Below are positions 4,101 through 56,055 of a stretch of DNA of 59,053 bases, piece by piece. A model generated the notes under the pieces. It saw only the letters and a program-made list of their open reading frames with translations, was not told the DNA's origin and did no database searches. Origin of the DNA: Saccoglossus kowalevskii (taxonomy: Eukaryota > Hemichordata > Enteropneusta > Harrimaniidae); contig NW_003128867.1 in NCBI RefSeq assembly GCF_000003605.2, positions 9,151 through 68,203 on the forward strand, given 5' to 3'. The translations under genes were made by a program, and so were the position numbers. How positions within the stretch are numbered: the stretch's first letter is position 1; each line of letters opens with the position of its first letter.

Positions 4101-7100
4101 AACATACAGTGCCCATAAATCTGAATATTTAACACACAGAAGCCATTAACCTGAATAGTTAATAAACAGAAGCCATAAACCTGAATAGTTAATATACAGT
4201 GCCCATGAATCTGAATATTTAGTGCAATAGTTAGCCTCATCTTGCAGTATATACAGTAATTCACAGATGGAAACAAAAATGATCAAAAGAAAAAAATAAA
4301 TCATGCATATCTAAAATAACATGCAGGGAAAATATGAAATAATGAAAGTAGACAATGAATGGAATGGAACAAACTTTAAGATGTTTAATCTTGTCAAAGC
4401 AGGGCAATTTCCCAACATTTTAATTGGTTATGCTGATAAGAAGAAACCGATCTAAATCTTCACTAATTTTCAAACCAAAAAATTCAGTTTATTTCGGATT
4501 TCAGTTCATTCTGGCATCAAACTTTGGTAAACTTTTGGTAATCTTAATTTCAATGTTGTTTTGAATGAATGTACTCAGTATTAATATACTATAATGTTAA
4601 AATAAATTTTAAACTTCATATAAACAATTTGAGATTGCTAAACAACAACACTGTTTGGAAATAAATGTGGTATGACAAGATTTGGTATTGGATGAAGTAC
4701 AGGAATGGCATATCATTATTTGTCTTTGTGCGGGGACAGACTCCATGGTAACGCATGCAGTACTGCTGCGGCAGGGCACTACAACACAACACAGAACAAA
4801 TTTACAGCGACAAAAAAAAAAATGGCAAAACATGTAGTACCTTTGCATGATGCAATGCCAAACCGCAGTAGATTGCAAAAGTTTCAAACGACTCTTCATC
4901 AGACTTTGTAAATTTTCCATTTTTCTTGTTCACCATTTGCACCACACCAATAATACTGTAGAAACAAAAAACAACATTTAATAAGGTTGCCATGGTAATG
5001 CTAAAAATGATGATGACTTATACAAGCAGGCTGTTTTAATTCCTTTCAGCTGTAAAAAAAAAAAAGCTTTACAAATCTTACTTTTTTACAGAAAACCTTT
5101 TTAATTATTACAATATTAATGTCATGCTAAAATTCATTTCAAACATTTAGATTTTTTTAAACAGGGCTTTTTGAGAATTTTTTTTTTAGATTACTGTTCG
5201 AATTTGAATATTGTCACTAAGGATGTTTGGTACAGTTTCATTTTTGCAATGTTTAAAAAAAAAATTACAATGTTTTTGTTTTTTTATTTAAAAGGATTTG
5301 TTTCACTTTTTGCTCATAGAACCTGTGTAATATAAACATACAATTTTCTCAAAAATAAGGTTAATGACCCCAATTTATTATTGCTAATAGTTGATATCAG
5401 AATTATCTCCCAGTGTTCGAAAAATGAGAAAATTCTAAATGTTTCTGTGAAACTGTACCAAACATTCTTAAAAAAAATTCTAAATAAAAATTCAAGTTTG
5501 TCAAGAAAGAAAAAAAAAAGAATTATGTAGGCAATAGAACACCACACAAGGGCGCTATAACACCACATGGCGCTATAACATCATGCGAGGGCGCTGTAAC
5601 ACCACTTAGGGCGTCCTATTCAAGTTTTGATCACTGTTCAAAAAAACCCCATTGCGTATTGCGTTTGCCATTGTATTTCTTTAAAGAATACATTTGCCAT
5701 TTGAGCAAGGAAAGAATCAATGCACTTACAGAGCTTGTATGTTTGTCACACTGTCAACACAAAATTGGAATCCATAATTTGAATAAATGACATGGACTCA
5801 CTGAAATTGTGATAGAAATATTTGGCAAGTCATGACAGTCATGGCCTTTGTAAGTTTCGAGTCCTTAAGTTGATAAAATTATCTGCTCCATGGAGCTCTG
5901 CAACGTTGCATTTTTCCTCACCTTTGAACTATGACCCAATCCAATGGGGTCAAGCATTTTTTTTTTTTAAACCTAAAAATATGTTAATATTTACGACTGG
6001 CATCACATGCTTGCATTCTCTGTTTTAGAATTAAGATAAAATGCATTAACACATGCACGTTTCCATGTCAAGGGCAGATAAAAAAAAGGATCAAGAAGAC
6101 AAAGATCTTCCGAAATTCCAAATATCGTGGTTACATAAATCAGTGGACGCAATAGTGACAAGTCACATGCGTGGTTGTCTCGCATACAGAAATCTCAGCG
6201 ACCATTTGTGTTCAAGGCAAAAGATGCCAATTTTACATGATCAATGCTGGCACATTCTTCAAATAATAGCGTATTATAGAAAATACAGACCTTTGCCTTT
6301 GTCCACCCTTACTGCTATTCTGCACCGAGCAACATTTATATTTTACCATGCATAGCGTACACATGCTAATTTCTCCAAAATAGATCAATAATGGTGCCTG
6401 TATTACGGACAGTCCCCAGTACTGAACCAGAATAATTGAACTACAGTACTGGTCCATAAGATTTGTCTCCAGTACCAGACTGTTGTGGAGGACAAGCATT
6501 ATGGTCCAGTACTGGAGATCTGGCGTACGGAACCATTTAATATGGAGGGCAGTCATTATGGTCTAGTGCTTTACTTTTACAGAGGAACTATTTTAAGAAT
6601 GTACATTATTAATTCATGCTCATTTTTCCCCTAAAAGAATCATTAAATCTTTTACAATCTTGTGTGGCAGTTTTTATATTCTTGCGAAACAATGTTTTTT
6701 TTATCCAAATTTACCATTTTGGCCTTTTTCCTCATAAGTAAGTTTTACCTATTTAATTAATCCAGCCATGCATCATTACTGAATGAAATCAAAATTATAA
6801 TGCCCACCATCTCCTCGTCCATTGGAATTGTGGGTAATCATGATGCTTCACCATAAAAGAAAACATGCACTGATCCAATACTGATCAAGTTCTGGCTAAT
6901 AGTAACAATGCTTTCCAGTGACAGATGGAGCTGAGCATGGTTGACATCCATAACATATTGTACCAGCACTGCACCATAAATTTGTTGAGTTTAGAGAAAT
7001 TTGCGTGTGTACAGTACTGAATTAAACATAACTGTTGTATTAAAGTGATGTAATTTGGCAAGACAGAAACATCCAGGAAATTTTGTAGAGGTGAATAGTT

Positions 7101-10032
7101 CTCAAAACAATCATTAAAATGAATCAGGTCATGGTTAGACATTAATTTTTTGACTAGCATTTTTCACTTTCAATGCTCACAAATATGTCCTATTAACCTC
7201 CTTATCTGGTAACACTGGTAGAAATTGGTAAAAAATTTACAAAAAAGAATTTTGAATTCTAATTTTGTTATTCAAAATTTAAATTCAAACTGATGTTGAA
7301 AAGAATAACAAACTGTATATCATCATATGCTTACCTTCTACATAATGGGAAGCAAATCAATAAAATAAAATAAAAAAGAAATTACAGAGAGACATAGGTG
7401 AGGGTCTCCTACGTCACATGATATATTCAACTACAGAAAGTTAGTGGAGGAAATAAATAGAAAACAAATAATAATAATAGAGGATGCATTGTGATTGTGT
7501 ACGTGTATCTACTTTAACTCGAATGTGCTGTTGGGTGGACAAAATAAAAAACCATGTAAATTACGGTAGCTGAGTTTATGAGAATATATGTAGTATTTAG
7601 GAAAAGATTGGTGGAATTGCATTGTGGGATAGATTAATTAAAATAGATACATCCCATGACTCACTAGAGTCATAGATGGAAAACCTTGAGTACAATGATG
7701 GATAATAGGTGAGTACACTGGGAATCCATGGTACAAAACTCTAGAGTTGATTATGAGGAATCCTAGTGTTAGAACACTAGAGTCAATGGTAGAGTCATTA
7801 GAGTCAATGGTAGAGTCATTAGAGTCAATGGTGGATAATACTATAATTAGGTGCAAAACATTGGGAATCCATGGTAGAAAACACCAGAGTTGGTGGTGAG
7901 GAATACTAGTGTTAGAACACTCCAGTCTATGGCAGAGAACACTAGAGTCAATGGTGGAGTCATTAGAGTCAATAGTGGATAATATTAGCATTAGCTGAAG
8001 AACACAGGGAATCCATGGTAGAAACACTAGAGTTGATGGTGAGGAATACTAGTGTTAAAGCACTGCAGTCAATGGCAGAGAACACTAGAGTCAATGGTGG
8101 AGTCATTAGAGTAAATGGTGGAGTCATTAGAGTCAACGGTGGATAATACTAGTATATCAGGTGAAAAATACTAGAGTCAATGATAGAGAACACTAGAGTC
8201 AATGGTGGAGTCATTAGAGTAAATGGTGGAGTCATTAGAGTCAACGGTGGATAATACTAGTATATCAGGAGAGAAATACTAGAGTCAATGATAGAGAACA
8301 CTTGAGTCAATGATGCAGAATGCTAGAGTCAATGATGGTGAACGCTAGAGTCAATGTTGGAGAATGCTAGAGTCAATGATGGAGATTGCTAGAGTCAATT
8401 TTGAATACTAGTAATACCTGAAGGACAGTAAAGTCAATTGCTGTACCAGAGGTACATGTGGCTAACATTAGAGTCAGGTGAACACTAGATTTCAAGGAAT
8501 CATGGATATTGTTATAGATGGCGCTAGAAAGGATAATTTTCTGGTTAATAGGTTGAAATAAAAATTGATAATGGATAGTTGTGGAGAATAGTTACAGCAG
8601 GAATTGGAATTAGGGTTACGGTTAGTTAACTTATCCGTCAAGCAATTTTTCCAATATCAGGTAACATTACTGACAGTTAAAAAACACTCCACCAAGAGAA
8701 AGTAAGAACCCAACAGCACTACATGGAGCCAAAGAACAACAAACTTTCAAACACTAAAAATTTGATATTGCCAAACCATTAGTGCAAAAATGAATGTTTT
8801 AAAAAGTGCCAACTCATGCAAATAAACAATGTGCGCAAGCAAAAAAAATAGATAATAAAAAAAGTTTTATCTGACACAGTTGAGAAAAGATGCAGAAAAC
8901 AAACAAACAAACATCAGAAAGATAGAGAACAAATCTGTAGGAATCCATACTTACTTTCCTCTAATGTAAATAGGCATGCAAAGTATCGTCTTCGTAACGT
9001 AACCTGTCTGGATATCAACATCCCTATAATAATAGAATGAGTTTGAAGCAGTTATGAGAATAATGTTGACATTTAACCCCTGTATATTTGTTGACCTTTA
9101 ACCTTACATAGTTTATAGAAATATCACTCCTATCCTGGAATCATCCAGGATAGTTGTTGACCCATTTACAAAAAGAATGTTTAGGGTATAAAAGATGTAT
9201 TTTGGATTTTTTTTTTTTTAAAAAACTTCCAAAATTTCTAAAACTTGTGCATTGATGTCAGTTAATTTTTGTTTCAGGATAATTTGTATTCATTTGATCA
9301 AACATTAAAATGAAATGCAAAAATAAATGATTGGCTGAGACACAGTCTCTCTAAGGACTTTGGCTTAGAGCCACGAAAATGAACTGAATCATTGTAGTGC
9401 CTGCAGACAAAACCTATCTTCTGTTATGATGCCATCAGTACATGACAACCTATTGACAATTAGTAAGCATGTAATAAAAAAAATACATATTTTGTCTTTC
9501 ATAGATTATTTAGGTCCAAGAGAGTAAAATCTATAAAATTTACCGATATTTAAAATTTTTTCTATCCCAGTACTTGCCTGTTAAATCGCTCATCCAGATA
9601 TGCGTCTGGTATATTTAGTGTACTTCCTGTAGAGGCCACATGTCCTGCTATCCCTTTCTCCATAGGAAACCTGAATTAGGTGAAAATAAAGAAGTCATGA
9701 CCTGATAAAGTCTCTGTACATTTGTAGCGTAAGTTATCTCTGAGTGCATGTGCATATATGTCTCCCATGATAAACAAGGCATGTAAACAGCATTAGTTAA
9801 AACACAAAGGCCACCAGTGACCATTATTAATTAGATTTGAAAAACAAAGTGACGTACATACATCAAGATTACATAATATCCAATGTATGTCTTTACACGA
9901 CTGAGATATGGTTCAAAATGAAAAAAAATGCTTGATTTAGAGAAATTTTTTGAATCAAAATGGCCGCCATATTGAATCTTAAATCAGATGTTAAAACAAA
10001 ATTAATATACATACATACCCACAAGATGAAGG

Positions 10033-13000: not shown

Positions 13001-16000
13001 TGGGCAAGTTAGTATGAGAATAAGGTTAGGAAATTAAATGATAAAAAATCTGAGGATTGTGGGATGAACAACAGCAAATGGAACACCACAGGATTTGTTG
13101 ATGCAAAGTTGGCTGACTGTTAGTAAATGAAACAGCATGGACAGATGAATATTTCACTTAGCTGTCCGTAGGATGGGGTGGGTGGCGGATAATGGAACAG
13201 CATAAGCTTGTCAGGTTAAAACTATGCAATGTGTAAACAGATAAAATAATTTATACAAATCAGATTCCTAAAAAACATATATTATTAATGTTTTACCTGT
13301 GAACGTTTATCAACATTAATAAATTTATATCTAACGTGTTTTTTTTTAATGTAGACACTTTCTCTGACAATATTCTAAATGGATTAGAGTTATAAGGTCA
13401 ACCAACATTATTATTATTTTACAATAAAAAAAAATTAAAATTGTTAGTAAAAATATATATAATTTCAATGTGTTCTTTGTTTAGTTAGCTTTCATTCAAT
13501 AAGTTAAAAAGGCATACAAATTTATTCTCTTAAACTGAAATGATGGTACTTAATGAAAGTGTTCTTAACCCTCTTTGTTTTGATTGCATTACCCGAAATG
13601 CAGAAGATTTGAAAACAAACAGATTTCAATGAAAATACTGGTTTTACAAGATATATGATGACAACCACATCAACGTAACTCATGAACACTCTTCAGACGG
13701 GTTCCAAGGCCTCTAATAAGTATGAGCTAATTAGCATAATTTCTAAATAACAAAGTTCAGATTTAATAAGTTCTCCAGGAGTTACTTATATCACCAAAAG
13801 ATGATATAGATAATTATAGAATATTTTTAATCGGGAATCGCTCAATCCCATTGATTGCACCATATGCTCATGGGTAATTAACTCCGCCTCTGCCCACTAA
13901 GTAAATGAATGCCTATTATGATCGCTTACTCAAACTGTGATTGACAGGCTTTTTGCATACATTAGTTGCCATTTTAAACTCATGATTTTTACTTGGTGCG
14001 GCAGGTTTCGACCGAAAACAACAACTTTTATACATCAGAAGCCCAACCAGACGAGTGTAATCGCTAGTGTACATATTCATGCCTCCGTAGAAATGTATTT
14101 GGAATCACAGCTTGATCTCTAAACATGGTAAATGGCATATTTCACGGAGCTCCCACCACGATGTGAGCGACTTGGTTCGGATTAGCATACTAATTGCGGT
14201 GGCCATCTTGCCCCTATTTTTAGTATCGGCTTCCCTTTAATCAATTTATATCACCCTGACATTTCACAGATGAATGCTAACAACGCTAATTTTACTACCG
14301 GTACTTTTTGAAAATTTAGAAGAAAAAAATGGTTTCCTTGAATTCATTTTACCTAGAGCTCAAATCAGTCTAAAGATCTCAACTTTTTTTATACCATTGC
14401 AAATAAAAGATCACAAAATTGCTGTCACCATGGAAACAAGCATCCCAACCTACGTTTTTTATTTGCTTTTTAACCACATACTTGATGTAAATAAAATAAC
14501 ACATTTTGAAGTTTTATTGTTCAGTTATTTCTTTTTTTATACCTTTAAGCCTTTAATGTTAAATTTCCATAGTATCTATTGCATAGGTTTGTATGCTAAA
14601 ACTACTTCTTCATCCTCATAGTTTAGCAACGTGATTGTCACTGATTTGAATCCTAAAATTGTGAAATACTGACATTTGGGTTTTTATCATGATATTTTTC
14701 TGTTATATCCAATCAATCTCCCATAATGCATTGCATACACGATGCTACATTAGAATTTTTGTTATTCATCGCGTCATTGTTAGTTTTTGATTCTCTTTAA
14801 GATACACTAGTTTTGAAAGTCATGGAATCATATTATTTTTTTTAGAATTTCACACACAATGCAGAATGGCATTAAACATAGATTAATTTACGCAGGCAAA
14901 TACAGGGTTGCAGTTTTAGTGAAAGAAGATAACAAGAAAAATCGGTTAGCAAGGTTACAAAAAAAATAAAGCAAAAAAAAAAAATGTTTTGTTGTATTGG
15001 GTAAAATTGGGCATCAAGCATGCAAGCATTTAGGCCAGAATACAGCAACATGCATTCCTGAGTTCTGAGATTTGCTTTGTGATAATGAGTTGGAAGGGTA
15101 ATCCTCTAGCCTGAAAAATATTAAAAACAAAAGTTTTGAAGATTTCAGACTATAGAGGGCTCCATTGCATAAAATGAAATCTGCTTCTTTGCGCTTATCA
15201 TATTAAAAACAAGAGTTTTGAAATTGTCAGACTATAGAGGGCTCCATTGCATAGAATGAAATCTGCTTCTTCGCTCTTATCATGCTCTTTTTAGCACATC
15301 CACTGACACCATTTTTCTCATCTTCATTTTAGCTATTCATGGAGGCTTTATGCGGGAGATATGTTCACAATAAAGCAATTCTCAAAACATCTTATCAAAA
15401 ATCTTTTTTTTTTCTTTTGCTAAGAACTACCCGAAGACAAAAAAGAGGTGCAAACACAAACCTCTCTGTCCAATAGTTTGCCATTACAATGCTACATTCA
15501 TAGTTGATAACATGCAGGAAGATAAGGAGTGCAGAGGAGAAAAACATTGATTAGTTAGGGTGCCTTAGGTTATTAACATACATCATTACAAATTTGACAT
15601 ATGACCCTTCCAGTGCCAAAATTACAATTTTTAAAATTAAAAAAACATGTCAAAAGGTAGATGGCACCTAAGGATGGATTATGATATTGTGTGAAAATAG
15701 GTTATCAGATTTATTATACAGATAATCACATTTATGCCAATTTAATTATGAACATATTAACACATTCTTGCAATAACTTGTTTTATATTCTAAAAAAAAA
15801 CATCAATTATAGTACTGTGGAATACTTTATTTTCGCTGGAATTAATTTTCGCTGAAAAGGCTTTTTAAGCGTTTTGTATGGAATTTATTTTCACTGATTT
15901 TTGGTGAGTTTAATGTGAAATATAGGAAAAGTATATTCGCTGGATTTTATTTTCACGAAATCATCCCTTCAGCGAAAATAGCGAAAATAAATTCCAAGCG

Positions 16001-19000
16001 AAAATAAAGTATTCTACAGTATTAAAATATGATCAGTTATGATTAAATTGTTTTCAAAGAGGTCAAAAGTCAAACAGAAATATAAAATGGTTGACAGAAT
16101 CCAGATTTGTTTTCAAGAATATATTTGCTCTCAGAATTTTTTTTAAATTTTTTTTTTCAAATTATTTAATATGATTAAGATTCTTAATTTGTTCCACAAT
16201 TCATAAAATATTACCAATAGATACCATCTATTTGACTTGTAAATAAAGAAGCTATTATCATCAGTAAATTAAAACATTGTGTATGTCACTAAAACTTGGT
16301 GCAATCGGAATTTTGACCCTCAAAACACTTTTTTCATAAATTTCCAACAAACATGTTTCATTTATTGAAACCTTATGATGAAATTGAATAAAGAAAAAAA
16401 GTAAGGTTTTTTAAACTATTTGAAAGCAACTTTAATTAATTTGCTTGTACTTGTATCACCAAGTACACCATTATATGGACAAGGAAGGGATAAACAAGTA
16501 AGGACCGAACCATTAAATTTTAGAGAGGGATAGCTAGGTAACGATCACACCATTACATTTTAGGAAGGGATAGCCAAGTAAGGATCAAACCATTATATTT
16601 TAGAAAGGGATAGATAAGTATGGATTGAACCATTATATTTTAGGGAGGAACAGCCAAGTAAGGATCGAACCGTATATTTTAGGGAAGGATAGCCAAGTAA
16701 AAATCAAACCATTATATTTTATGAAGAGATAGCCAAGTAAGGATCGGACCATTATATTTTAGGGAAGGATAGCCAAGTAAGGATCGAACCATTATATTTT
16801 AGGGAAGGATAGCCAAGTAAAAATCAAACCATTATATTTTATGAAGGGATAGCCAAGTAAGGATCGAACCATTATATTTTAGGGAAGGATAGCCAAGTAA
16901 AAATCAAACCATTATATTTTATGAAGGGATAGCCAAGTAAGGATCGGACCATTATATTTTAGGGAAGGATAGCCAAGTAAAAATCAAACCATTATATTTT
17001 ATGAAGGGATAGCCAAGTAAGGATCGAACCATTATATTTTAGGGAAGGATAGCCAAGTAAAAATCAAACCATTATATTTTATGAAGAGATAGCCAAGTAA
17101 GAATCGGACCATTATATTTTAGGAAACAATAACCAAGTAAGGCTCAAACCATTATATTTTAGAGAATAGAAAAAACATCAATTGACAAATTCAGCTTTCA
17201 AACTTTTCTCCCAAGCTGCTTATTTTTGTAATTTCTAAAATTTTCACTCGATGTGAAATACAAGCATATCAAGTTATATACCTGGTATAATTTTTGATTT
17301 CTGAAAAAATAATTACTCCTGAATTTATAGATCATATTAAAAAATATTTGTGTTTTGAGGGTCATATAAAAACTTGCCTCAGATGATACCAGTTCCCGAA
17401 CAGAGGCCTGCAAAAGGGGTGGTTGTTTTGAAACAAATAAATACACACATTAAGTACAACGTGGAAACCAAAATATCAACGTAGAAATGAAATAACACAT
17501 ATAACAGGGTTACCATGGGAATTGGCACTGCAAAGGTAACAATAATTAGAAAAAGAAAAACACTCTGCAAAAAGATGATTTTTAGAATGCACACACAAAA
17601 AACAAAAACTGGCATATGATGACCTTTAACCTTTAGTTAAGCTGATGGAAGATGACAATACAACAATCAGAAATACAGTATGCTTTGCATGAAATCCGAT
17701 TGGCCGATGAGATATTGCATACCTGCTTAGTACACCAATAGCAATATGAATATGTAAATTAGTATGAACTATGACCTCAATATAGATGAGAATAAATTAT
17801 AATTCTAAAAATCAAACAAAATCCTATTTTTTTTTCGTGTTAATTCCTCTACCAAAATTATCTAATGAGTTATCAATTCCCCAACCCATTTGATTTGAAT
17901 TTGAAAGAGACATAGACAAAGACACACAGCTGTAAACCCTATGAGTATGATAGTTGATACCATGGCAACAGATCACATGATACATATATAGAACAACATA
18001 TATAATGTTGACGATATTACCTCGGCATAGTAGAGAGCAATACCACCCCACACAAGGTAACTACTCGCAATCTGAAAACAAAAACACAAATGGGGAAATG
18101 AAATAACACCTCATAGTCGTATAACAGTTTGATGTCGGATCCATGCTATGTGCATAACTAAAACTCATAAAATAAATGTAGCAGTCATTTTATTTGAACT
18201 CTACATGTAAACACTATACCATCCCACACCACTAGAGGGCACTGTTTCAGTCTCATATACTTTGCAAACAATACATTGTGTGTACATATATACATAGACT
18301 GGCACAGTCGGGGCGATTAATTTGTTTTGTAATAAAAAAAATCGCCAAATGGAGGTTTATTCTGCAGGAAATTCATTGCTATTAAATATTCATGAGCACA
18401 TATTATAATGAAGTGGGCGCGGAAATACGTGCATAATGAGATCAACATAGTAAAGGTCACACTGCAGACCCAACATGGCGGCACGTTGAATTTCGAGTTT
18501 GTCGTAGTCGTCGTTTCTTATTCATCACAATGTAGAAATGAAACTCGTACTGTCGTAGAATTGAAAAAAAATCGGCTGCTACAATCAGCTGACGTCTTCT
18601 CGATCAGAGGTCAGTTGAAGAGACGTGATTGGCTTAGATGATTGTCAGTGAGAACACTCATTAACATAATAACCCGTTGCAGTGTCGATAGAGGGCCATG
18701 TAGAATAAACCAGTCGGGGTGATTTCGCAGTCACAGGGATTTCGCACTAACACCTCCATTTCGCGATTTTTTTTTATTTTATTTAAACTACAAAAACAAA
18801 TTACCCCGTAATCGCCCCGACTGCGCCAGTCTAAAATATACACTGTTAACACAAAATTCAAATATGTATTGCCATGACAACTTTAAAAATTAAATGCCAA
18901 TAAAACTGTTTGCATAAAAATAGACACATAATAGCGTGATGCCATGAAACTCAGCTCATTACCACATAATAGCGTGATGCCATGAAACTCAGCTCATTAC

Positions 19001-22000
19001 CACATACTGATTAAAAAGTGTATCTCAACTTTGTGATTTTTAACTAAGTTGCAGCATTGGGTATAAACCGTGGTACTAGTAAATAATAGCGTTTCATACC
19101 TCTTCATCTTCCTCGCCGAATGGATAGTTTCCTTCTGATCTGAAGAACTCCAGAACACCTGGAAACAAACATAGAGAAATGAGAAGCATTGCCCTAACTA
19201 TGGTTCATATATAAGTACCAATCATTACCATATATGGTGATTTTCTCTCTTAATATCAAATCATGATACTCCTGTTACCAACATTACCATGTATGGCAAT
19301 ATGTCTTAGCAATTCCTGTTTCGTCTGGCTTTGATATTACCGTATATGTTAATTTATTTAGTCAGTCACCATTATAAATATATATGGTAATACATGATTC
19401 TGTTATCATCATCATTACCAAATCTTCTTTTTCTTCAGTTTCCAACATTACCATAAATGGATGACTTACTTCTACATTTTATAATTAGTAATATTACCAT
19501 ATATGGTAATTTCATATTTATTAAGTCTTCAGCATTACCATATACATTGTATAACTGGTTATATTACCATATATGGTAATTTCATAGTTATTCAGTCTCC
19601 AACATTACCATAATATGGATAATTACCAATATATTGTATAACTGGTTATACATGTATTACCGTATATGGTAATTTCATAATTATTCAGTCTCTAACATTA
19701 GCATATATGGATAATTACCAATATATTGTATAACTAGTTATACATGTATTACCATATATGGTAATTTTATAATTATTCAGTCTCTAACATTACCATATAT
19801 GGATAATTACCAATATATTGTATAACTAGTTATACATGTATTACCATATATGGTAATTTTATAATTATTCAGTCTCTAACATTACCATATATGGATAATT
19901 ACCAATATATTGTATAACTAGTTATACATGTATTACCATATATGGTAATTTTATAATTATTCAGTCTCTAACATTACCATATATGGTTAATTACCAATAT
20001 ATTGTATAACTAGTTATACATGTATTACCATATATGGTAATTTTATAATTATTCAGTCTCTAACATTACCATATATGGATAATTACCAATATATTGTATA
20101 ACTAATTATACATGTATTACCATATATGGTAATTTTATAATTATTCAGTCTCTAACATTACCATATATGGTTAATTACCAATATATTGTATAACTAGTTA
20201 TACATGTATTACCGTATATGGTAAATTACCAATATAAGATAAGATAAGATAATTCTTTATTACAACCTTATAGAATGAATTACATATCTATTTTGGTTTA
20301 TGAAATGCAATAAAGGTGTTAAAATAAACATAACAAGTTAGATATCTAAAATCTACTACAATACAGTTACATGAAATAATGTAAAAAAAAAAAATATTAA
20401 TGACCCATTAGGTGGTTTTCTCTAATGGTATTTGCTGTTTTTATAAATTTGATATTTATATTGTATAACTGGTTATACATGNNNNNNNNNNNNNNNNNNN
20501 NNNNNNNNNNNNNNNNNNNNNNNNNNNNNNNNNNNNNNNNNNNNNNNNNNNNNNNNNNNNNNNNNNNNNNNNNNNNNNNNNNNNNNNNNNNNNNNNNNNN
20601 NNNNNNNNNNNNNNNNNNNNNNNNNNNNNNNNNNNNNNNNNNNNNNNNNNNNNNNNNNNNNNNNNNNNNNNNNNNNNNNNNNNNNNNNNNNNNNNNNNNN
20701 NNNNNNNNNNNNNNNNNNNNNNNNNNNNNNNNNNNNNNNNNNNNNNNNNNNNNNNNNNNNNNNNNNNNNNNNNNNNNNNNNNNNNNNNNNNNNNNNNNNN
20801 NNNNNNNNNNNNNNNNNNNNNNNNNNNNNNNNNNNNNNNNNNNNNNNNNNNNNNNNNNNNNNNNNNNNNNNNNNNNNNNNNNNNNNNNNNNNNNNNNNNN
20901 NNNNNNNNNNNNNNNNNNNNNNNNNNNNNNNNNNNNNNNNNNNNNNNNNNNNNNNNNNNNNNNNNNNNNNNNNNNNNNNNNNNNNNNNNNNNNNNNNNNN
21001 NNNNNNNNNNNNNNNNNNNNNNNNNNNNNNNNNNNNNNNNNNNNNNNNNNNNNNNNNNNNNNNNNNNNNNNNNNNNNNNNNNNNNNNNNNNNNNNNNNNN
21101 NNNNNNNNCTAACATTACCATATATGGTTAATTACCGATATATTGTATAACTAGTTATACATGTATTACCATATATGGTAAATTACCAATATATTGTATA
21201 ACTGGTTATACATGTATTACCATATATGGTAATTTTATAATTATTCAGTCTCTAACATTACCATATATGGTTAATTACCAATATATTGTATAACTAGTTA
21301 TACATGTATTACCATATATAGTAATTTTATAATTATTCAGTCTCTAACATTACCATATATGGTTAATTACCGATATATTGTATAACTAGTTATACATGTA
21401 TTACCATATATGGTAAATTACCAATATATTGTATAACTGGTTATACATGTATTACCATATATGGTAATTTTATAATTATTCAGTCTCTAACATTACCATA
21501 TATGGTTAATTACCAATATATTGTATAACTAGTTATACATGTATTACCATATATGGTAATTTTATAATTATTCAGCCTCTAACATTACCATATATGGTTA
21601 ATTACCAATATATTGTATAACTAGTTATACATGTATTACCATATATGGTAATTTTATAATTATTCAGTCTCCAGAATTACCATATATGGATGACTTACCT
21701 ATACATTCTCCATTTGATTGTATGATTGGTAATGCTAGTGCGGAAAATGTATTAGGTTCATCTATTGCCATTCCTACAGGATACCTTGCATCCTACAAAA
21801 TAAAAATACCCAGAATGCTTCAAGAAAATAAAGTAAATGTGAATTACCGGTACTGTAAAATACTTTTATTTTAGCTGGAATTAATTTTTGGTGAAAACAC
21901 TTTTTAGGCGTTTTGTATGGAATTTATTTTCACTGAACTTTGATGAGTTGAATGTAAAATATAGGAAAAAAGGTGTATTTGCTGGATTTTATTTTCACTG

Positions 22001-25000
22001 AAACACTCCTTCAGCGAAAATAGCGAAAATTAATTCCAAGCGAAAATAAAGTATTCTACAATATTCAAATTTATGCAAATATTCATATTTTGCCAATCAC
22101 ACTTTCCTTTCCAAAGAATCAAGTAGCTATAGGCTTTGAAGTGTTTAGCTTACTTAATTTGTGTTTTCTAGTTTTAGGAAAAGGAACTATAAAGGTTTTC
22201 TTACCCCTGTGAAATCTGTAGTGCATACTGTTTGTAACGAGTGGGCAGCAAATCCTGCAATTGTACTTCCTTTATCTATTTTCCATCTCACTGTATTGTC
22301 ACTGTAAACACAGTATTGAATAAGTAACATATTGCCATATTTGGTGTGTGTAATATTACCATATATGGTCATCTTGGTTCTCATATATTACCACATATGG
22401 TAATAATACAACATTAGCATATTTGGTTATTCAAAGTTCAAGTAATTCTCTATATGGTATTCTCTATGTTTTTGTATTATTACAAAAGTTTAATATTCAA
22501 TAAATAAATAAAAAAACACAATTCTTACATTAAATTGCTTGGTTTGTAGAGGTAAAGATCCTGAAAAAAATGGAATAATAATTTAGTGGAATGAATTTGG
22601 TACAATAGTTGAAAAAAGCCAATACTTCAACTGATCTTACATTTCCTAGTGATACCACTTGGTGGCGCTATACAACAATCAAAGGATGTACTGGTACTTT
22701 TTCGAATAAGTTTGATACAATGTTTCAAAATAGAGTGGTGGTCATGACCTCATTCCATACTATGCATAGCAACATATACCACGGCTGAGATGACCACAGT
22801 TATTGAATTATCATTATTTTGGGCAAAACATTAAAGTAAAATTTATTTGAAGGAATGATAAATAACTCACTGTTCTGTTTTCATCTACTAAATAAAGATG
22901 TGTGCCGTCTGCGCTGATGGCTGACGATATACATTCAGATAATTCATTTAACACTTGTGCTTTGTTGGGATGTTGATGGATATCTCTCGTCAGTTCTTGT
23001 AACATTTTCCTTTTGTCTTTGTGAACGCAAAACTGTAAAATACAAAATAAATCACTGATTACGACAATATGAACAATAGACGAGTAGTGAGTTCCATGGT
23101 TGCTTTGTTGCCATGCGCGGGACAATGTCAATCTTGTAAGTAAAGGTGGGTTTGATAAACAGTTTTAGACAGATGTTTTCTTATACCATTTTCAGTTTTT
23201 TGTTGATTTTATATTTTATATATCCAGGTTGTATTTTAAAGTTTTTGAGATGTTCATAAAATTTGAAAACATATATACAGACATTAAAGCGGGGGAGTCG
23301 TCACCTTCGCATGCTTCAGATGGCCATAGCGTGTCAATGTTTACAAACAAGCGTCCATATGCGAAATATTATTTACGACTTTTTGATATCTGTACGTACA
23401 TTGTAAGATACCTTCAAAGGTCAAGAAACAAAGACATGTATTCAATTTGCATAAAAATGACACACATGATCTCAACATAATTCTGTCACATGCTCTTTAA
23501 CGTACTGACTAGAGATAACAAAGTACAAAAGCATACTAATAGTAACTAGGGGGGAACTAGTATAGCGCCCCCTAGAGTGTGTCTGCTTAGTTCTTTTGTT
23601 TAAATTTGCCATTTCATGGTAAAACCAACATATGAAATAGAAATCAGTAAGCTCAATAAAGAATTGATATTTCAAGGTTTACTGAAAACTTAATACATTT
23701 TTCTTTGATTGAATCGATCATGACCTATTATAAATTCTAAAAACATGTTTTTAAAGAAAAAATAACAAACATATTTTTTTGCAGAGTTCACTTAATAGAA
23801 ATGTCATAATAGTAGAGTAGAATAAATTAAACATTGATTCGGCTATGGCGCGGCACAGTTGATCCAAAATAATAAAGAAATGACTCAGCAGGAAATTGTA
23901 TTATGAATGATTTAGAACCGAATTGTGAGAAATATCAAAATAGAGATTTAAGTGAAATTCAGCAAAATCTTTGACAGTGATAATAAGTGTAAATACAAAT
24001 GTATATCTCTATAATGAGAAATGGAGAGACAAAAGAGACAACAAATTGGCTTCCAACATTATCATTAACTTCAATACTTGAACAGTGGAAAACTATATAA
24101 TATTCACGATGGGGGTCCCAAACTCAGTTATCAAGGTAACGGAAGCCAGCTGTGAAAAGGTGTCATGTTATATCAAGGGCAGATCAAAATAAGGGTACCT
24201 GACGTCCATACACATGTACACATACACATCTCACTGAAATCACATGATGTGAGCTCATACAAGTTATTTTTTTAGCATCATTTGAGATACAATTTTGCTT
24301 ATGATTTGAATGCACGAGTTTCATTGAGATCTCATGTCATAATTACAAACCCTTTGTTTAATATGCCCTTGTTTATAACTTATTTTGATTTATATTTTTC
24401 AAAAGCAACAAAATATCAGGAATGACATTTTGTATCTTTTTTTTCCAGTAATTTTCATTCCAAACAAAAAAATATAATTTGTTAACGCTGAGTGTCGAAG
24501 TCATTATTTACGAATTTTTGACCTACATAATTTTTTCATAATTTTTCCAAAATTTTGATCAAGGCTTGTAGCCGATATGAAATTATGATTATTTGGTTCA
24601 AAATTATTAAAATAAATATAGAAAAATACATAAAAACAGAAAATGTTGCACCGATATTTTTCTGAGAAAAATGATGACATTCAAAGGATTAAGATGATTG
24701 CACATCTGAAGATCATCAACCATTTCAATGTCATAAAACTTCCCGCCAAATTTTTGCATAGTTTTTGTTTTTATCAAAATTATTTTGCTAATTTTCAACT
24801 AAATTGATATCATTTTTAATGTTTTGATCAAATATTTTATAAAAATATATGTAAAAAATTAATTCAGATCTGTATATTTTGTGAAAAGTTGATTTTGGTT
24901 TTCAAAGTTAATAAATGATTTAATTTAATAAATAATATTAATTATTTAATATTAATATTTCATGAACACTTAGGCGAGGGAGAAGTAAAAGAGACTATAA

Positions 25001-28000
25001 TAATGTGATTTGATGAAAAATAAAATCTTCACATGATATAATAATGTTATTATATGCGTGCAACAAGGCATCCAGCGGGAGTTGATGAACATGAAAGAAG
25101 TTATTATGTCTGTCATGTCATTATGCACGGAACACCAAACACATCAGAGGTATTATAGAGTTAAGTGAAGAGTGATAACAAGAAAAGCGGTGATTATAAT
25201 CAGAGGAGGACGAGTTTAATGATGCGAATGAAGAGAGTGAATATTATGAGTATAAAGAAATCGAAGCGTGTGAACTTTAAGATAAAATTTGATGCTAGTT
25301 GACGCCGACATAATGGGTGCCAAATGTGATGCGATTTTGTTTCTCAAAAAGTAAACAGTATGTGGTTGAATAATTGGAGAATGTGATGCAGATACATTAG
25401 TGGGTAAGAGGGAGTAAAAACGATGGTTGGGAAGGCAGAGGTTTAACTGACAAGTAGGAGAAATTGAATTTGTTGATCCTAAAGTCATTGTTCGCAAAAC
25501 AGACTTTCAGATTTTTTGCCATATTTTTTTTTTAAAATTTGAGCAAGACTTGAAGGAAATGGAAAATTATGTTCATTTAGTTTAAAAATCAACAACAAAA
25601 TTATAGAATTATTGAAATATGCATAATATTGCATAAATTGCTTGTAGGAAAAATTATAGCATTCAACAAGAGGAGAGATATTATGCATCTGATGGAGACA
25701 TGGACAAAAAAAAGATTCATTGATGTAGAGATAGAGTGATGGAGACATAGAGTTGATTAAAAGATAATGATTGGAAAAAGTCAACCATGCTAATAAGCGA
25801 TCAGTGAAGATAACGAAAAGTAGGTCTCCCTTGACGCACGCAGGTACGCGTAGGTGTCATTCTTGATTTTCACACCATTGGCTATTAATAAAACTGTTCA
25901 CACATTTTGAACAGAGGAACTGTTTCATTGAGAAATAAAAAAGTCTTCCCTCTTATTCTAGTCTTAGCATCCCCATTATCAGATACTGCCCTCTCTCCCA
26001 CACACACATGAAGCTAACTTACTGTAAAGGGGTTAATTATTCACTGGGTTTTAATTTTGCTTATTTCGCTGACTAGAAAATGCGCTAAATTAAAACCCAG
26101 TGAATATGTAAAATTTAGCATGGAACACATTATCTAAATGACAAAACCGTGAATTGACAACCCACTGAATATGCCTGAAATGGTAAATTAGCGAAATTTA
26201 AACCCAGTGAAAATTAGTCATTTAACAGTATGTTTTTTTAAATATGAACTCTCAGGAGAATTTTGTACCAAAGTCTGCCTTGTAATGAAACCCATTTAAT
26301 AGACAGACTAGAAAAACATAAACCAAATACTAATAGTTGCAAAAGTCTTGCTCATGTTAGTCTGCCCTCTAGAGGCCAATCCAGTTGTGAATAATGAATG
26401 ACCAATATTTCTAATTTCATCAACATAATTTCAAATGATGCAAAATATCAGAACAGTGTATGAAAATATATGTATGAGTGAATATATCATTGCAAAACTT
26501 TACAACATAAAAGCACTTTTAAGCCGCATAAATTTGAAATTTTGTGGCAGAGAATGTTTTGCTGGAGTTCTAAAGACACAGATTCTGATCCACTTTCATC
26601 AAATGTCACGAAATTCAAAATTTGAGAATATAGATCTTTGTTTTTAATAATGGTTACTGGTCGTGAGATATTGACTAAATTATTTATGTACATTTGTTTA
26701 TCTAACAAATAAACATCACTGTCAGGTGAGCAAACACGGTTGAGACCATGTTTACGTAAATATAAAAAAAAAAACGGTTCGTGACCAGAAAAAATGCTGA
26801 CACTCACAATGAAATATACACGAATAAACAAACTTAAATTCACATATATGCTTTTGTCAAATTGTTCAAAAAATCAACTGCTTTGACATGTGTCAAATAT
26901 ATTAAACAAGCTACTACAAAACTAAATGTAGTTTATAACCAACGTGTATTTGTTCGATACTTCGTATCTGAGTGATGTTGAGATATGTCAAGAGGAGGGA
27001 GGCTGGGGCGGAGACTGAAAACCACCTGGCAAATTAATTGTAAAATACGTCTGTCTATTTAAAAAATTACATAAAGGTTGATAAGAAGTAGAATGCTTGA
27101 CTAAATTTCTTACATAATCGAGAGTTCATTCAAATTAACACTCGATCCATGACAACGTGACAGAGATTTAAGCTATGTTGTTTGTTCAGGCTTTAGGTCA
27201 GTCTTCATTTGTGATCATACTCAAGAGTTCACCAGAAGGCTTAAAACTAACTCTGTCCAAATATACATAAATTAGTGGTGCTAAACAACTATCAGAGTCG
27301 GCTAAAGTATGCGAAGAAGTTGTTTCAAGAGATGGCGTCAATAACAGAATTAAACGTAGTATCAATCATTGTCTTTTGTGCATGTGGAACAGAAGGGGTG
27401 TCTGAATATTTTTTTTTCCATCATTTAAAAAACTATAAACTATTTACTATCAATTTCGTAACTACAGTTCACTGCAATGTTTTCTGCCAGAAACCACCCA
27501 ATTTTGAGCAGCGTTTATTTATTTATAAACTACTATTACAATTTTGAGCGATACGTGTATACTGTAGAATACTTTTTTTTTCTTGGAATTTATTTCAGCT
27601 ATTTTTGCTGAAAACATGAATCGGTGAAAATAAAATCCAGCGAATATTTCCTTTTTTCCTAAATATTTTACATTCAACTCATCAAAAATCAGTGAAAATA
27701 TATTCCATACAAAACAACTAAATATTCTTTTCAGAAAAAATGTATTCCAGCTAAAAAATTTACAGTATATAAATTGCCATCAAGGATGCTTCCTCCAAGG
27801 TTTCACATTCTGAATAGACCACCATTGATATCCATTCCCCAAATACAGATAAATAAAAATAAACCTTTTCTAAAACAATATTTACAGATAATAGTTATTA
27901 GGTAAACCTAGCATACCAACAATTGTAATCTAGACCCCTAGCATACTTTAAATAGTTATTTGGACCCCCTAGCATATTTTCAATAGATTTCTAGACACCC

Positions 28001-31000
28001 TAGCATACTTTCACTAGTTATCTGGACACCCTAGTACACTGACAATAATTATATTGATACCCTGGAACACCACCAATATAGAGACCCTCGCATAATTATA
28101 ATACTTATCCAGACATATAGGATGATTAGGCCAATCAGCAATCAATACTGCTACCTAAAATATGTAATATTCATGAAATCAACATAATTAGCATAAATTT
28201 GCATACCTTCCATCTTGAAAGCCTCCTTGGAGAATTTTCACCTAAGATGAGAACAAAAAAAAGTATAAAAATCATGAAAATTTTTTTTAATCGTCAACAA
28301 ATAAACAAAATGTACATGCTGCGAAAGAAAATAGTACAAAAATGTACGATGTTTTAGGTTTTAAGGAAAAAGAAGCTCAAGATAAAAATGTTCATCTTTG
28401 AGTATATGAAATACTAATGTGTGCTGTATGATGAATGTGATGCTTTAATGAGCCTTATATGAGTTTCAAAGTCATGTGATGTGTCTGAGTATATCATCAA
28501 ATCCACCATTTTGTTCAGTCATGGTTATAAATCACAAAAACTGTTGTTATGGCCACCATATCACAACTTGTCAGGTCATACTTTTACTGTTTGTTTCTCT
28601 CACCCCTGAAAAATGAGCCTACATGGTAATGTTGTACTCTTGAGAACATTCATAGAGTTATTTTGGGACTATTAAGTAAAATATTTGATGCATTAAAATT
28701 GCATGAATTGTGAAGAATATATAATAAATGTTCAAATTGTTTTGCTTTTCAGCGTGTTCGAACACTGACATTCATTTTGGTGCCAATCTGAGCGTACTTT
28801 TTAATTTTGATGCTGACATCTTTTAATTAAATGTTTGAAATTACTGAGATTCACAGAAAAGTAGAAACATTGCAAAACCTCATTTTCCCCACAATGCATC
28901 ACAGTGAGATCATCAAATATTTCAAACAATAATCCCAAGACTCCAAAGCTTTATGACGGTTTTAAGAATATAGAATACATGTACTTTTATCACATGCACT
29001 AGAAACCCATATATGGTTAATCACATCACGAATACATCAGAGTAAGACAACAAACTTTAACCTCGGCAAGCTCGAGCAAACACAAGAAAAATTGTTCATA
29101 CATGTATATTCCAAAAAGTTATAAAAAGCAGTTACATTTTTGTGCAAAAAATATACATATTTTCGGGCACCCATGCTTTGGTAGCACTAAAAAAAAAACT
29201 GCCCAAAGAAACAAGACTTACAATGCTTTCCTTTTCTCATGTAGACTAGAAAAGGAAAATTAATATTAATTATTATGTATATAAAATCATATTTAATTAA
29301 AATTAAAAATTAAATTTTGGTAAATTTTTGTTTTTCAAATGTAGCATGAAATCAACAAACACAAATGTTGTATTTTCATTTATTTTTCATTACTTTTCAA
29401 ATTATAGATCAGAAAACTCACAACTTATTTTATTGATGGGGATTGATGTGTGGGAAAATGGGAATAATATCATATGGTTTGATCAACTATAACCTAGTTG
29501 AACATAAAATGGTTTCCTAGGTGATGTGTATTAAACATTTAAAAGCTATTGTATCAAAGCAATGACCAATTTCACACTTTGTGTGAGAGTATTATCAATA
29601 TCCAACTTTTCTTCTAAACACTGATTTATAAACCTATTAATAATAGATTTAATAAAGAAGATTTCAATTAAAAACAATTATTAAATATTCATAAATATTA
29701 TTAGTACATGACCTCCATTATTTTGGCGACAGACATGAACTATAAAATTTTACTCATCATCATTAAATTATCATTATGGCTTGATTCAAATGGTTGCTAT
29801 GGAAACAATAAAACTGATGAGGCATGTGGAGTTTTTATAATATATGAGCAAAAACGAAAGAAGTACATGTGTGGATTTGACACATATCTTCATATTTTCC
29901 ATTATTATGGCAACCACCCGAATACACATCTCATTTATGATCGAAAAAATCAACAGCATGGTGTGGTACTGTAGAATACTTTATTTTTGCTTGGAATTTA
30001 TACTTTACAGCGAATATACTTTTTTCCCTATATTTCATATTCAACTCGTCAAAAATCAGGGAAAACACCCAAAATGCCTTTTCAGCGAAAATTAATTCCA
30101 GCTAAAATAAAGTATTTCACAGTATTTGATTTTATAAAAAGATTTTTTTTTTTTACGGAACTTGTAGCCATCATACAACATTGATTTCTGTGATAGACAA
30201 CATGTACCAGTACTACATTGTACATGCACAGAAATCAGCTTCACATTATGATTGTAAAAAGCAGCCTTAGAACCCCCAGCAAAATTGCGTTCATAACCCT
30301 TTAATAGAACAGCCAAAATGCCTTTTCCCATCGCCATAGCTCCCAAGTGGAACAGCTAAAATGCTGCTTTTGTGACATATTAGCAGTACATGACTCCCTA
30401 GGCATAGTAATATTTTCATGTGACATGTATATGACCCCCTAGCAGAGCAGAAAATAGTGTTATTTTCATGAGATGAACAGTACTGTGAAATACTTTATTT
30501 TAGCTGGAATTAATTTTTGCAGAAAAGATATTTTGAATGTGTTGTATGGAATTTTCACTGATTTTTGACGAGTTGAATGCGAAATATACAGAAAAAAGTA
30601 TATTCACTGGATTTTATTTTCACGGATTCATCCTTACAGCGAAAATAGTGAAAATAAATTCCAAGCGAAAATAAAGTATTCTACAGTATATGAACCCACC
30701 AGAACAACAACAAAGTGTTATTAATATGAAATTATATGATATAAAGTTCCCTTCATGCATAAAATTCTACTTACTTCTTTCTGTATTTGGAAATAAAACA
30801 AAGAAAGCAGAGAAGAAAGAGAGAATCCTCAATTGAAATAAAACAGAAATATTCAGAAAATAAGAAGTTTTATCAAAAGAAAATTTTACCATAAAAACAT
30901 CTAAAAATCATTTTAAGAAGTATCAATATTTCTATCTTTTTTGGTGAAAAATCCTTGATGTAAAAGTATCATCACAACTTATAACTATAAGCTATGCAAG

Positions 31001-34000
31001 TAATATGAGGTTATTACAAGGATACCGAAAAGTATGCACAAAGACAGTACAGCGGGAGTATTGACAGATGTGCAGCGGAAGATGATGCGACCCGGTACTG
31101 TCTGAGTGCATACTTTTTGGTATCCTTGTGATAACCTAATTATTATACATCTTCTCCTTCCAAGGATACATCATGGGGATTCCGAAATCCCAAAAGTTTA
31201 GAACAGAATCAGCAAACTTCTTTGTGTGGAGTCCGGTCAAACCCTGGTGGCAGCCATATTTGTTTTTATTATTAGAGGACGCTAACATGCGTAATTTTTC
31301 AATATTTGGAATTTGCATTTCCTAATATGGTAGGATGAAAATACCCTGTAAAATACCGCGTGGCGTTACTCTATGTTTATAGGTGATTTTCCATTCAACT
31401 ACGAATAGTTATTGAATATGTATAATAAGTATGCAAATCATAATGTTGATTACCCATTTGTCAAGTCTAGAACAAAGCAACTGCCAAAAATACTTTGAAA
31501 ACTTGCGAGTCAACTTGTAAATTGACTGTCCGAATAATTCTAAAAATCGCTATAATAATGCATTTTGCTACTACATTGGATTAGGATTTCTCACAAACTT
31601 AAAAATATGTTTGATTTTTCTTCATTCGCATTGTACATTATTTTTAAGTTCAGCATGAATCAATATCCAATGTATTCATCAACATTACAGATTGCATAAT
31701 CTCTCCCATAGCCTTAAGTACAACATCTGTAATTTGTTAATACTAACTTTTTTTTTCATCGGCTTTTATATTAGACGCATACTTTAATAGAGCATTATTA
31801 TTTGTTGGAATATTCCTTGTTTAATATTTAAAATTTGACTTCGTATACACACAATTTCAACGATTGTGGGATGAAAAATGTTGTTTTGACAAGGTTGTGG
31901 TATTATTTATACAAATAATTCTGATAGCGCTTAATGGCATAATTGTGAACATTCTATCCTCGTCAAAAAATTAATATGACATTACTTACTATTAATTCTC
32001 CCAGCATCCTTTGCATTTGACAATCTCTGCGCCCGCCGAATCATCCATCTTTCTAAGTCTTCTTGATTGACGTTATTTAAAATGTAGTCTTCTAAAAACG
32101 CTGGATTGTCATTAAGAAATGATTTCACCTGTTCCGGATATATATGTTCTGCAAAATATAATCAGTTTTTCTGTCATTTTCAGTTAAAATCTATTTATTT
32201 TCTTAAAATTACAGTAATAAGCTTTCTTAATCGAATTCTGCGTAAAATCGTAATGTAATCTGGACTGGAACACTTGCCTAAAGCATGATAGCAACAATGT
32301 ATTACAGTTAGTAATTTTATGAATATAATTATGAATTTAAAATGTAATTCCGCTGTGAAAATAATAGTTTATCTTAAAGGCTTATTCTATAATGTTGCCT
32401 AGATACTGGATAGTTGTTGCCATGGTGACCTACAGCAAATATACAAATATGTGTTTTTGGAATGTAGACAGGAAGAAATCACCAAATATGCAATAACATA
32501 AAAATTAATATGGCTTTTTTTTTTCAAGATTTACATCGGTGAATTTATATGCCTGAACTTTGATCTATCTTGTGTGGATGGGTGTGACATTTAGTTATTT
32601 TATTTCACATTTTCGTAATGAAAATTAAAACAAAATTTCAGGCCACAAAAGATAATTCTTATGTTCTCTTTACTGTGCATATTAATTTTTCAGAAAAATA
32701 ATGCTGATCCATGACAGAGTTTGAATTTCCATGAAATTATGTACCAGCGCCTTGTAACTACTTTCTAAGATTATTTATTCCAAATTTCTACATACAAATG
32801 TACATTTATCCAACTCAAATACTGTAAAATACTTTATTTTAACTGGAATTAAAGTTCGTTGAAAAGAAATTTTGGCTATTTTGTGGGAAGTTTTGTGGGA
32901 AAATGCACTAAATTAAAACCCAGTGAATAAATGCTAAAATTTAGCATAGAACACATTATCTAAATGATAAAACCATGAATTTAAAACCCACTGAATATGC
33001 CTGTAATGGTAAATCAGTGAAATTTAAACCCAGTGAAAATTAGTCATTTTACAGTACGTAAAAAAAAAGTAAACCGTAAGTGTTGTGTACATTAAATGAC
33101 CAGTAACGTCACGTAAGGTCACAAATAAAAACATAATTCATAGTTACGAACTATTAACCGTATGCACCATCTGTCAAAACAAAAAAATTTTCATTGTGTA
33201 ACATTTCACAAAGGTGAGGAATAAAAAAGACATGTTAGTACATTACAGCCTGTATCCATAGCAACTAAGTGTTCCTATTTCATGATATTATTAGTTTTCC
33301 GTTATGAAGAGAAATGACGATACTTATGTAATTCAGGATTTTACTCGTACAGCAAATGACGGAAGTGTAACTTTTTAGACGTAAAAACTATTAATCATAA
33401 AGCAACAATGTTACACTATAGGTTCAATGAAGCAGATATTCATACAATTCCTGTTTGATAGTGGATAGTCCCATCATTTATTTAGCAATTTTTCCTACTA
33501 AACATGTTTCTTTTTTAATTTTCATAATTATTTTTTGCCAAATTCAATATTTTTGCACTAAGTTATTGATTGGAAATTTCAAATTTTATAAGCGAAAATA
33601 AGCAAATAGTAACATGATTTGTGGAGTAAAAAAAAGATGTTAAATAGTTATCTAGACTTTAATCAAACGTGTAATAAAGCCGACTAAAAGGTTATAGCGC
33701 CACCTGTGTCCGCAAATGACTGAATGAAACCCTAAAGGTGGAGTAACAGAAAATGCCACATAATAGTACATGTGATGTTCAAAGAGCTTGGAAACTATTT
33801 CATGAGTGAATGCAGTATGTTCTGCAGCCTTATTTTCACAGGAAAGTACAGAATGCATATACTGCGTCACGAGTAAAAATAACTTCCATGCTCTTTGAGC
33901 GTCACATCAGAGAAAGGCCATGAAGTTCCATTATTAATACGTGTTTCAGATTTAGAGAAAGTTATAATCACATCATCCAAGACGTTTGTATGAGTGCATT

Positions 34001-55843: not shown

Positions 55844-56055
55844 TACTGTGGAATACTTTATTTTCGCTGGAATTAATTTTTGCTGAAAGGGCTTTTTGGG
55901 CGTTTTGCTTGGAAATTATTTTCACTGATTTTTGATGAGTTTAACGTGAAATATAGGAAAAAAAGTATATTCGCTGGATTTTATTTTCACGGAATCATCC
56001 CTTCAGCAAAAATAGCGAAAATAAATTCCAAGTGAAAATAAAGTATTCTACAGTA
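55844..56055. mobile_element. Family A inverted-repeat element
   Basis: This 212-bp copy runs from TACTGTGGAATACTTTATTT to AAATAAAGTATTCTACAGTA. It is very similar to the copy at 15813 along its whole length, so both are probably recent. Confidence 0.88.

Follow-up and report, generated by a model that had tools for sequence, protein, structure and literature searches.

Microexons regulated in neurons are described for vertebrates and flies in the literature that we found, and exons of only 3–6 nt are easily missed by annotation. In the passages of that literature drawn on here, eMIC-dependent exons are characterized by a long AG-free zone, a UGC near the acceptor, a UCUC-rich tract and a weak acceptor; in flies they have strong branch points, especially downstream, follow an exon with a strong donor and themselves end in a weak one, whereas the donors of mammalian eMIC exons are strong (PMC8797185). 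Targets of SRRM3/4 are reported, in part of a second study, to have weaker tracts (PMC10551640), and excerpts from a third describe most SRRM4-dependent microexons, above all those with weaker acceptors, as splicing their downstream intron first (PMC10250204). Alternative micro-exons of the human brain, according to sections of a further paper, are preceded by less T close to the AG and by more T farther than 20 nt from it, and carry TGCATG as the only highly over-represented motif of the 3' flank; one of them, in a CACNA1 gene, is 6 nt long (PMC4317164). In zebrafish, neuronal microexons are tied to cAMP-PKA signalling in the portion of the report consulted, and a text search of it for pde10 gave no match (PMC13281805). 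Human PDE10A is described, in the part of the source used here, as giving rise to at least two isoforms from one gene (PMC3363252). Across the titles, abstract openings and selected passages searched, no PDE10A microexon is described.

Here, we examine a candidate cassette microexon of six bases, AAAGAA, in a PDE10A-like gene on the minus strand of the window (the whole stretch of 59,053 nucleotides analysed, from Saccoglossus kowalevskii). We put the probability that AAAGAA is a genuine alternatively spliced microexon of this gene, as its sequence and flanks suggest, at roughly 0.6. By analogy with the exons described above it would most likely be neuron-enriched, and the probable effect of its inclusion would be a modest change to a basic linker before the GAF-A domain. 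A PDE10A-like case that carries most of the motif set suggests that cyclic-nucleotide breakdown may be under microexon control.

The host gene was assembled from 14 minus-strand exons, all of them bounded by splice sites and one having a GC donor; a human PDE10A sequence served only to guide the search. Exon 9670–9578 is followed by GCAAGT (9572–9577, minus strand) and thus borders a GC–AG intron. When ten consecutive placed exons are joined, they stay open as a single frame over 290 residues; among solved structures the closest relative of this frame is the GAF-B domain of human PDE10A (2zmf, E=1.4e-62), with PDE5 chains next (E=1.6e-57). Pfam searches detect the GAF family over two stretches (E=1.7e-25) and, in the open frame, the start of PDEase_I (E=1.1e-05), a match that falls below the curated cut-off when the exon is searched alone (E=0.00018). 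Because the GAF-B part matches PDE10A 2zmf, we regard the identity proposed by an earlier sequence-only reading as settled: judged by its predicted protein, with tandem GAF domains and a phosphodiesterase domain, the gene is PDE10A-like, an assignment limited to the GAF part because only the start of the catalytic domain could be read.

Searches of the PDB and Pfam with the N-terminal part alone returned only weak matches to other families. With the GAF-B part as query against the 572-Mb assembly, and among the 10 candidates scored, five of eight matches were exons of this same gene and the other three, at 8.0e-9 or worse, were weaker loci on contigs C1465 and C1229, so that no second close copy appeared among those 10. 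Neither the window nor three outside stretches, two of them wholly and one partly masked, yielded the missing parts of GAF-A or the other catalytic exons. A run of 627 N occupies 20482–21108 within the gene, and part of GAF-A may lie there. On the opposite strand, 41220–41522 (plus) holds an open frame of 100 residues with no Pfam match up to E 0.1.

The candidate lies at 30775–30780 (minus strand) in a 3.7-kb intron, 31989–28242. A long CU-rich tract ending TTTATTTCCAAATACAG precedes it and GTAAGTAGAA follows directly, the sequence on its 3' side reading, over a longer span, GTAAGTAGAATTTTATGCATG. The upstream coding exon (31990–32148, minus strand), which ends in GRIN, was located by tblastn with the human PDE10A sequence (E=0.003) and by its splice sites. 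Frame and splice sites place the downstream coding exon of 35 nt (28207–28241, minus strand), which is required, as it shifts the phase from 1 to 0 ahead of the following exon. The two exons join in phase 1, and four joins (skipping, adding 6 nt, adding 24 nt, and adding both) are all open. Inclusion of AAAGAA lengthens a junction stretch of 16 residues to 18 without introducing a stop, adding Lys-Arg five residues before RRLS, which we take to be a PKA-type motif; PDE5 also has a PKA/PKG site before its GAF-A. On the coordinates, the phase-1 to phase-1 setting, the indifference of the frame to inclusion or skipping, and the addition of Lys-Arg just before a basic RRLS linker, the sequence-only reading was therefore correct. 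Judged from sequence only, the six bases fall within the microexon range of 3–27 nt between usable splice sites, both sites scoring within the range of the 14 gene exons.

The two splice sites differ in quality. We scored them with position matrices that combine consensus values with the sites of the 14 gene exons, and since the matrices were partly trained on those exons, the scores of the gene's own sites are somewhat inflated. The acceptor TACAG (30781–30785, minus strand) has a moderate score of 6.0, below 13 of the 14 gene acceptors (2.9–17.4), since CCAAATA intervenes between tract and AG; it is not the textbook pyrimidine-rich acceptor that had been claimed. The GTAAGT donor (30769–30774, minus strand) is strong: its score of 9.8 is the best of the 11 donors in the intron that score at least 5.3, and the 14 gene donors span 6.7–13.0. 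The donor of the upstream exon, 32148–31990, scores 7.6, third lowest of those 14.

Around these sites lie most of the elements expected of a regulated microexon. The CU-rich tract (30789–30825, minus strand), set back 8 nt from the exon, contains UCUCUC/UCUUCUCU, presumably PTB-type motifs, and has 22 YYYY tetramers and six UCUC/CUCU matches, where the 14 gene acceptors have no more than 13 and 3, respectively. Among 2559 AG sites on the sense strand, none but the candidate combines 22 or more YYYY with an AG-free zone of 40 nt or longer. Its own AG-free zone measures 47 nt. A UGC at −29 to −27 (30807–30809, minus strand) may be called near the acceptor, at the outer edge of that term. On the downstream side, TGCATG, an RBFOX-type site, begins 16 nt into the proximal intron (30754–30759, minus strand). 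We looked for GCATG owing to the published regulation of micro-exons by RBFOX, and counted GCATG, TCTCTC and TCTTC beside TGCATG. Within 100 nt of donors scoring at least 6.7, TGCATG occurs at 2 of 86 on the sense strand (the AAAGAA donor and that of exon 4955–4841) and at 2 of 90 on the other strand.

A branch-point consensus is missing. Neither CTAAY nor CTGAY occurs within 120 nt upstream of the acceptor at 30780 or of the acceptor at 28241, the nearest YTRAY being TTGAT at −96 of the former and TTGAC at −56 of the latter. Between −45 and −9 of the AAAGAA acceptor the only adenine is at −14, so that any branch point would have to be a distant one, at about −46 to −54 or still farther away.

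How the candidate compares with described exons depends on the class. Mammalian PDE10A isoforms differ by alternative N-terminal first exons; the gene here belongs to the same family, but its candidate is an internal 6-nt cassette. Likened from genomic sequence alone to eMIC exons and to RBFOX/PTBP1 exons, AAAGAA shares with the former, as partially described for SRRM3/4 and fly Srrm234, its length, a multiple of three, the AG-free zone, the UGC, the UCUC tract and the weak acceptor (PMC8797185, PMC10551640). Unlike the fly eMIC exons of that description, it is without CUAAY branch points upstream and downstream and its upstream donor is not strong; its own donor is strong, as in mammals, and not weak, as in flies. 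Its tract is dense but set back, whereas the SRRM3/4 targets are reported in the excerpt used to have weaker tracts (PMC10551640). With human brain micro-exons that are enhanced by RBFOX and repressed by PTBP1 it has in common, by the sections consulted, the downstream TGCATG, the tract beyond 20 nt and a 6-nt precedent (PMC4317164). Micro-exon 4 of CPEB4, in the portion of the source used, is likewise a small insert tied to kinase motifs, PKA included, but comprises eight residues with motifs of its own, in contrast to two residues near an existing RRLS (PMC9978375).

An alternative is that the arrangement is accidental, a CU-rich intron tract with an AG and a GTAAGT that are six bases from each other by coincidence and never used. 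We consider this unlikely, though it must be taken seriously, and the missing branch-point consensus is a point in its favour. Splice-site strength alone is not decisive for AAAGAA. Counting cassettes of 3–30 nt whose sites match or exceed its own gives two on the sense strand and one on the other, against an expectation of 0.4 from Markov sequence of two orders, each run 30 times. All three are multiples of three, for which 0.1–0.2 would be expected, and one of them lies on the control strand; because that strand also has a frame-keeping cassette, the Markov null is too lenient. When the cut-offs are lowered to the weakest sites of the gene, no excess of cassettes is seen (12 sense and 6 other, versus 14.4–18.5 expected), as chance would predict.

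Once the regulatory layout is counted, AAAGAA exceeds chance, by tight cut-offs that are post hoc. A loose layout was defined by an AG-free zone of at least 40 nt, a UGC within 35 nt, at least one UCUC/CUCU, a donor at least as strong as the weakest gene donor, and a length that is a multiple of 3 up to 27; the 35-nt limit was chosen after the candidate was known, and the candidate would fail a limit of 25. This layout occurs twice on the sense strand and never on the other, with 0.36–0.55 expected, and 4.5–7.5% of shuffles also reach two, a result that still leaves room for accident. Any length of 3–27 nt gives three, versus 1.2–1.4 expected, and adding TGCATG within 100 nt leaves one, as happens in 1.8% of 1000 shuffles. 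No site passed a filter that required at least 80% pyrimidine in 50 nt, not even the candidate, at 72%.

The tight layout argues more strongly against accident. Defined like the loose one but with an AG-free zone of at least 45 nt, at least two CU matches and a donor of at least 9, cut-offs that were set with the candidate already known, it is found twice on the sense strand and not on the other, against a mean of 0.017 in local shuffles, none of 1000 of which reach two. Across three block sizes, with 200 shuffles each, the mean was 0.015–0.025 per strand and again 0 of 200 reached two; with TGCATG added, one match was observed and none of 1000 shuffles had any. Contig C1465 served as an outside control, sampled on both strands in 20 pieces of 10 kb, of whose 200,000 bases 58,618 (29%) were masked. 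There, 40 AG sites had the tight upstream layout, none with a frame-keeping cassette and one with a cassette of 4 nt, and the loose layout yielded three cassettes in frame and nine of any length over 400 kb-strand. In the window, by comparison, 2 of the 13 sense-strand AG sites with the tight upstream layout have a strong frame-keeping donor, versus about 0.004 per site. The microexon reading put forward from sequence gains from features that it had not mentioned (the AG-free zone of 47 nt, the UGC at −29, the UCUC tract set back from the AG and the TGCATG at +16), all of them described for regulated microexons (PMC8797185, PMC4317164), whereas its appeal to a textbook acceptor does not hold and splice strength does not decide the matter.

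Both layout matches lie in one gene and on one strand, which we consider the most interesting part of the analysis. The other match, identified by the layout scan and by reading, is a 3-nt candidate, AAG (7335–7337, minus strand), in the intron 8954–4956. It is flanked by two GAF-B exons, 8955–9023 upstream and 4841–4955 downstream (both minus strand), each recognized from its placement in the gene, its splice sites and its match to 2zmf. The acceptor scores 9.1 and the donor 11.8, with an AG-free zone of 68 nt, a UGC at −17 and four CU matches; no GCATG occurs within 300 nt on either side. Inclusion would turn RGNIIGVV into RGKSIIGVV. The human 2zmf chain aligns without gaps to the skipped form, and the insertion probably falls in a turn between strands. 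The evidence for AAG is of the same kind as for AAAGAA, but there is less of it. The sequence raises the tentative idea, which we would sooner doubt than accept, of a gene with two regulated microexons of the eMIC/RBFOX type, one of 6 nt before GAF-A and one of 3 nt within GAF-B. If true, neurons would adjust a single cAMP/cGMP-degrading enzyme in two places, by two added residues in one and one residue in the other.

For AAAGAA as a regulated microexon, the flanks suggest how its splicing might be controlled. By default the six bases would be skipped, through their tiny size, the weak acceptor and PTB-type repressors bound to the CU tract. In neurons, and perhaps in muscle, RBFOX at the downstream TGCATG and an eMIC/SRRM-type factor at the UGC could promote inclusion by helping U1 to engage the strong GTAAGT and U2AF to engage the set-back tract, and the strong donor would be recognized first. 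Going by the frame, inclusion would extend, by Lys-Arg, the linker that joins the N-terminal region to GAF-A. We infer that a more positive linker charge, tuning kinase recognition or binding and not catalysis, may be the likeliest effect, its size perhaps small.

The same acceptor could instead be used with a donor after 30700, producing an 81-nt poison exon (30700–30780, minus strand) that would lower PDE10A mRNA by decay in some cells. Such an exon shares its acceptor with AAAGAA, has a donor of 7.9 and runs into an in-frame stop after KRSK; yet the GTAAGT only six bases from the acceptor is stronger (9.8), and an 81-nt exon leaves its presence unexplained, which makes this reading very improbable. 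Recursive splicing, in which the intron would be removed in two pieces at a ratchet point or RS-exon and none of the six bases would reach the mRNA, is scarcely credible, for although recursive splice sites have the same general shape of an acceptor at once followed by a strong donor, they have a zero-length exon (AG-GT) in a very long intron, whereas here 6 nt lie between the sites, the intron is 3.7 kb and the layout is of the microexon type.

AAAGAA is not the sole frame-keeping candidate: besides the 3-nt AAG elsewhere, its own intron holds two open 24-nt pairs, both lesser candidates on the minus strand and weaker than AAAGAA. One open cassette (29222–29245) would encode IYMRKGKH, which is basic, and has a weak donor of 5.3 and neither UGC nor UCUC; the other (28582–28605) would encode RVRETNSK, with an acceptor of 9.6 and a donor of 6.1. 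Longer exons ending at the GTAAGT donor were rejected, one from an upstream AG at 30900 (126 nt, open by eye) on its acceptor score of −1.2, and those from acceptors at 30991 and 30984 on stops in frame.

A block of 151 nt around AAAGAA occurs at one place in the 572-Mb genome. In a viral contig set, a protein pattern from the upstream exon found 15 pattern stretches and no relative, and the exact block pattern found 0. A repeat origin for the block is ruled out by its single place in the genome and by the position of the nearest repeat copies, which start at about 30690, some 85 nt downstream. That repeat, of about 210 nt (30480–30690), lies downstream of the candidate within its intron and has a partial inverted copy at 30008–30124. 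Further copies, 83–86% alike, are found near 15811–16022, 55844–56055, 21850–22064 and 27558–27756, and the element resembles a small mobile element. Also within the intron, 31001–31145 is self-complementary (74% over 148 nt) and forms a long hairpin-like repeat.
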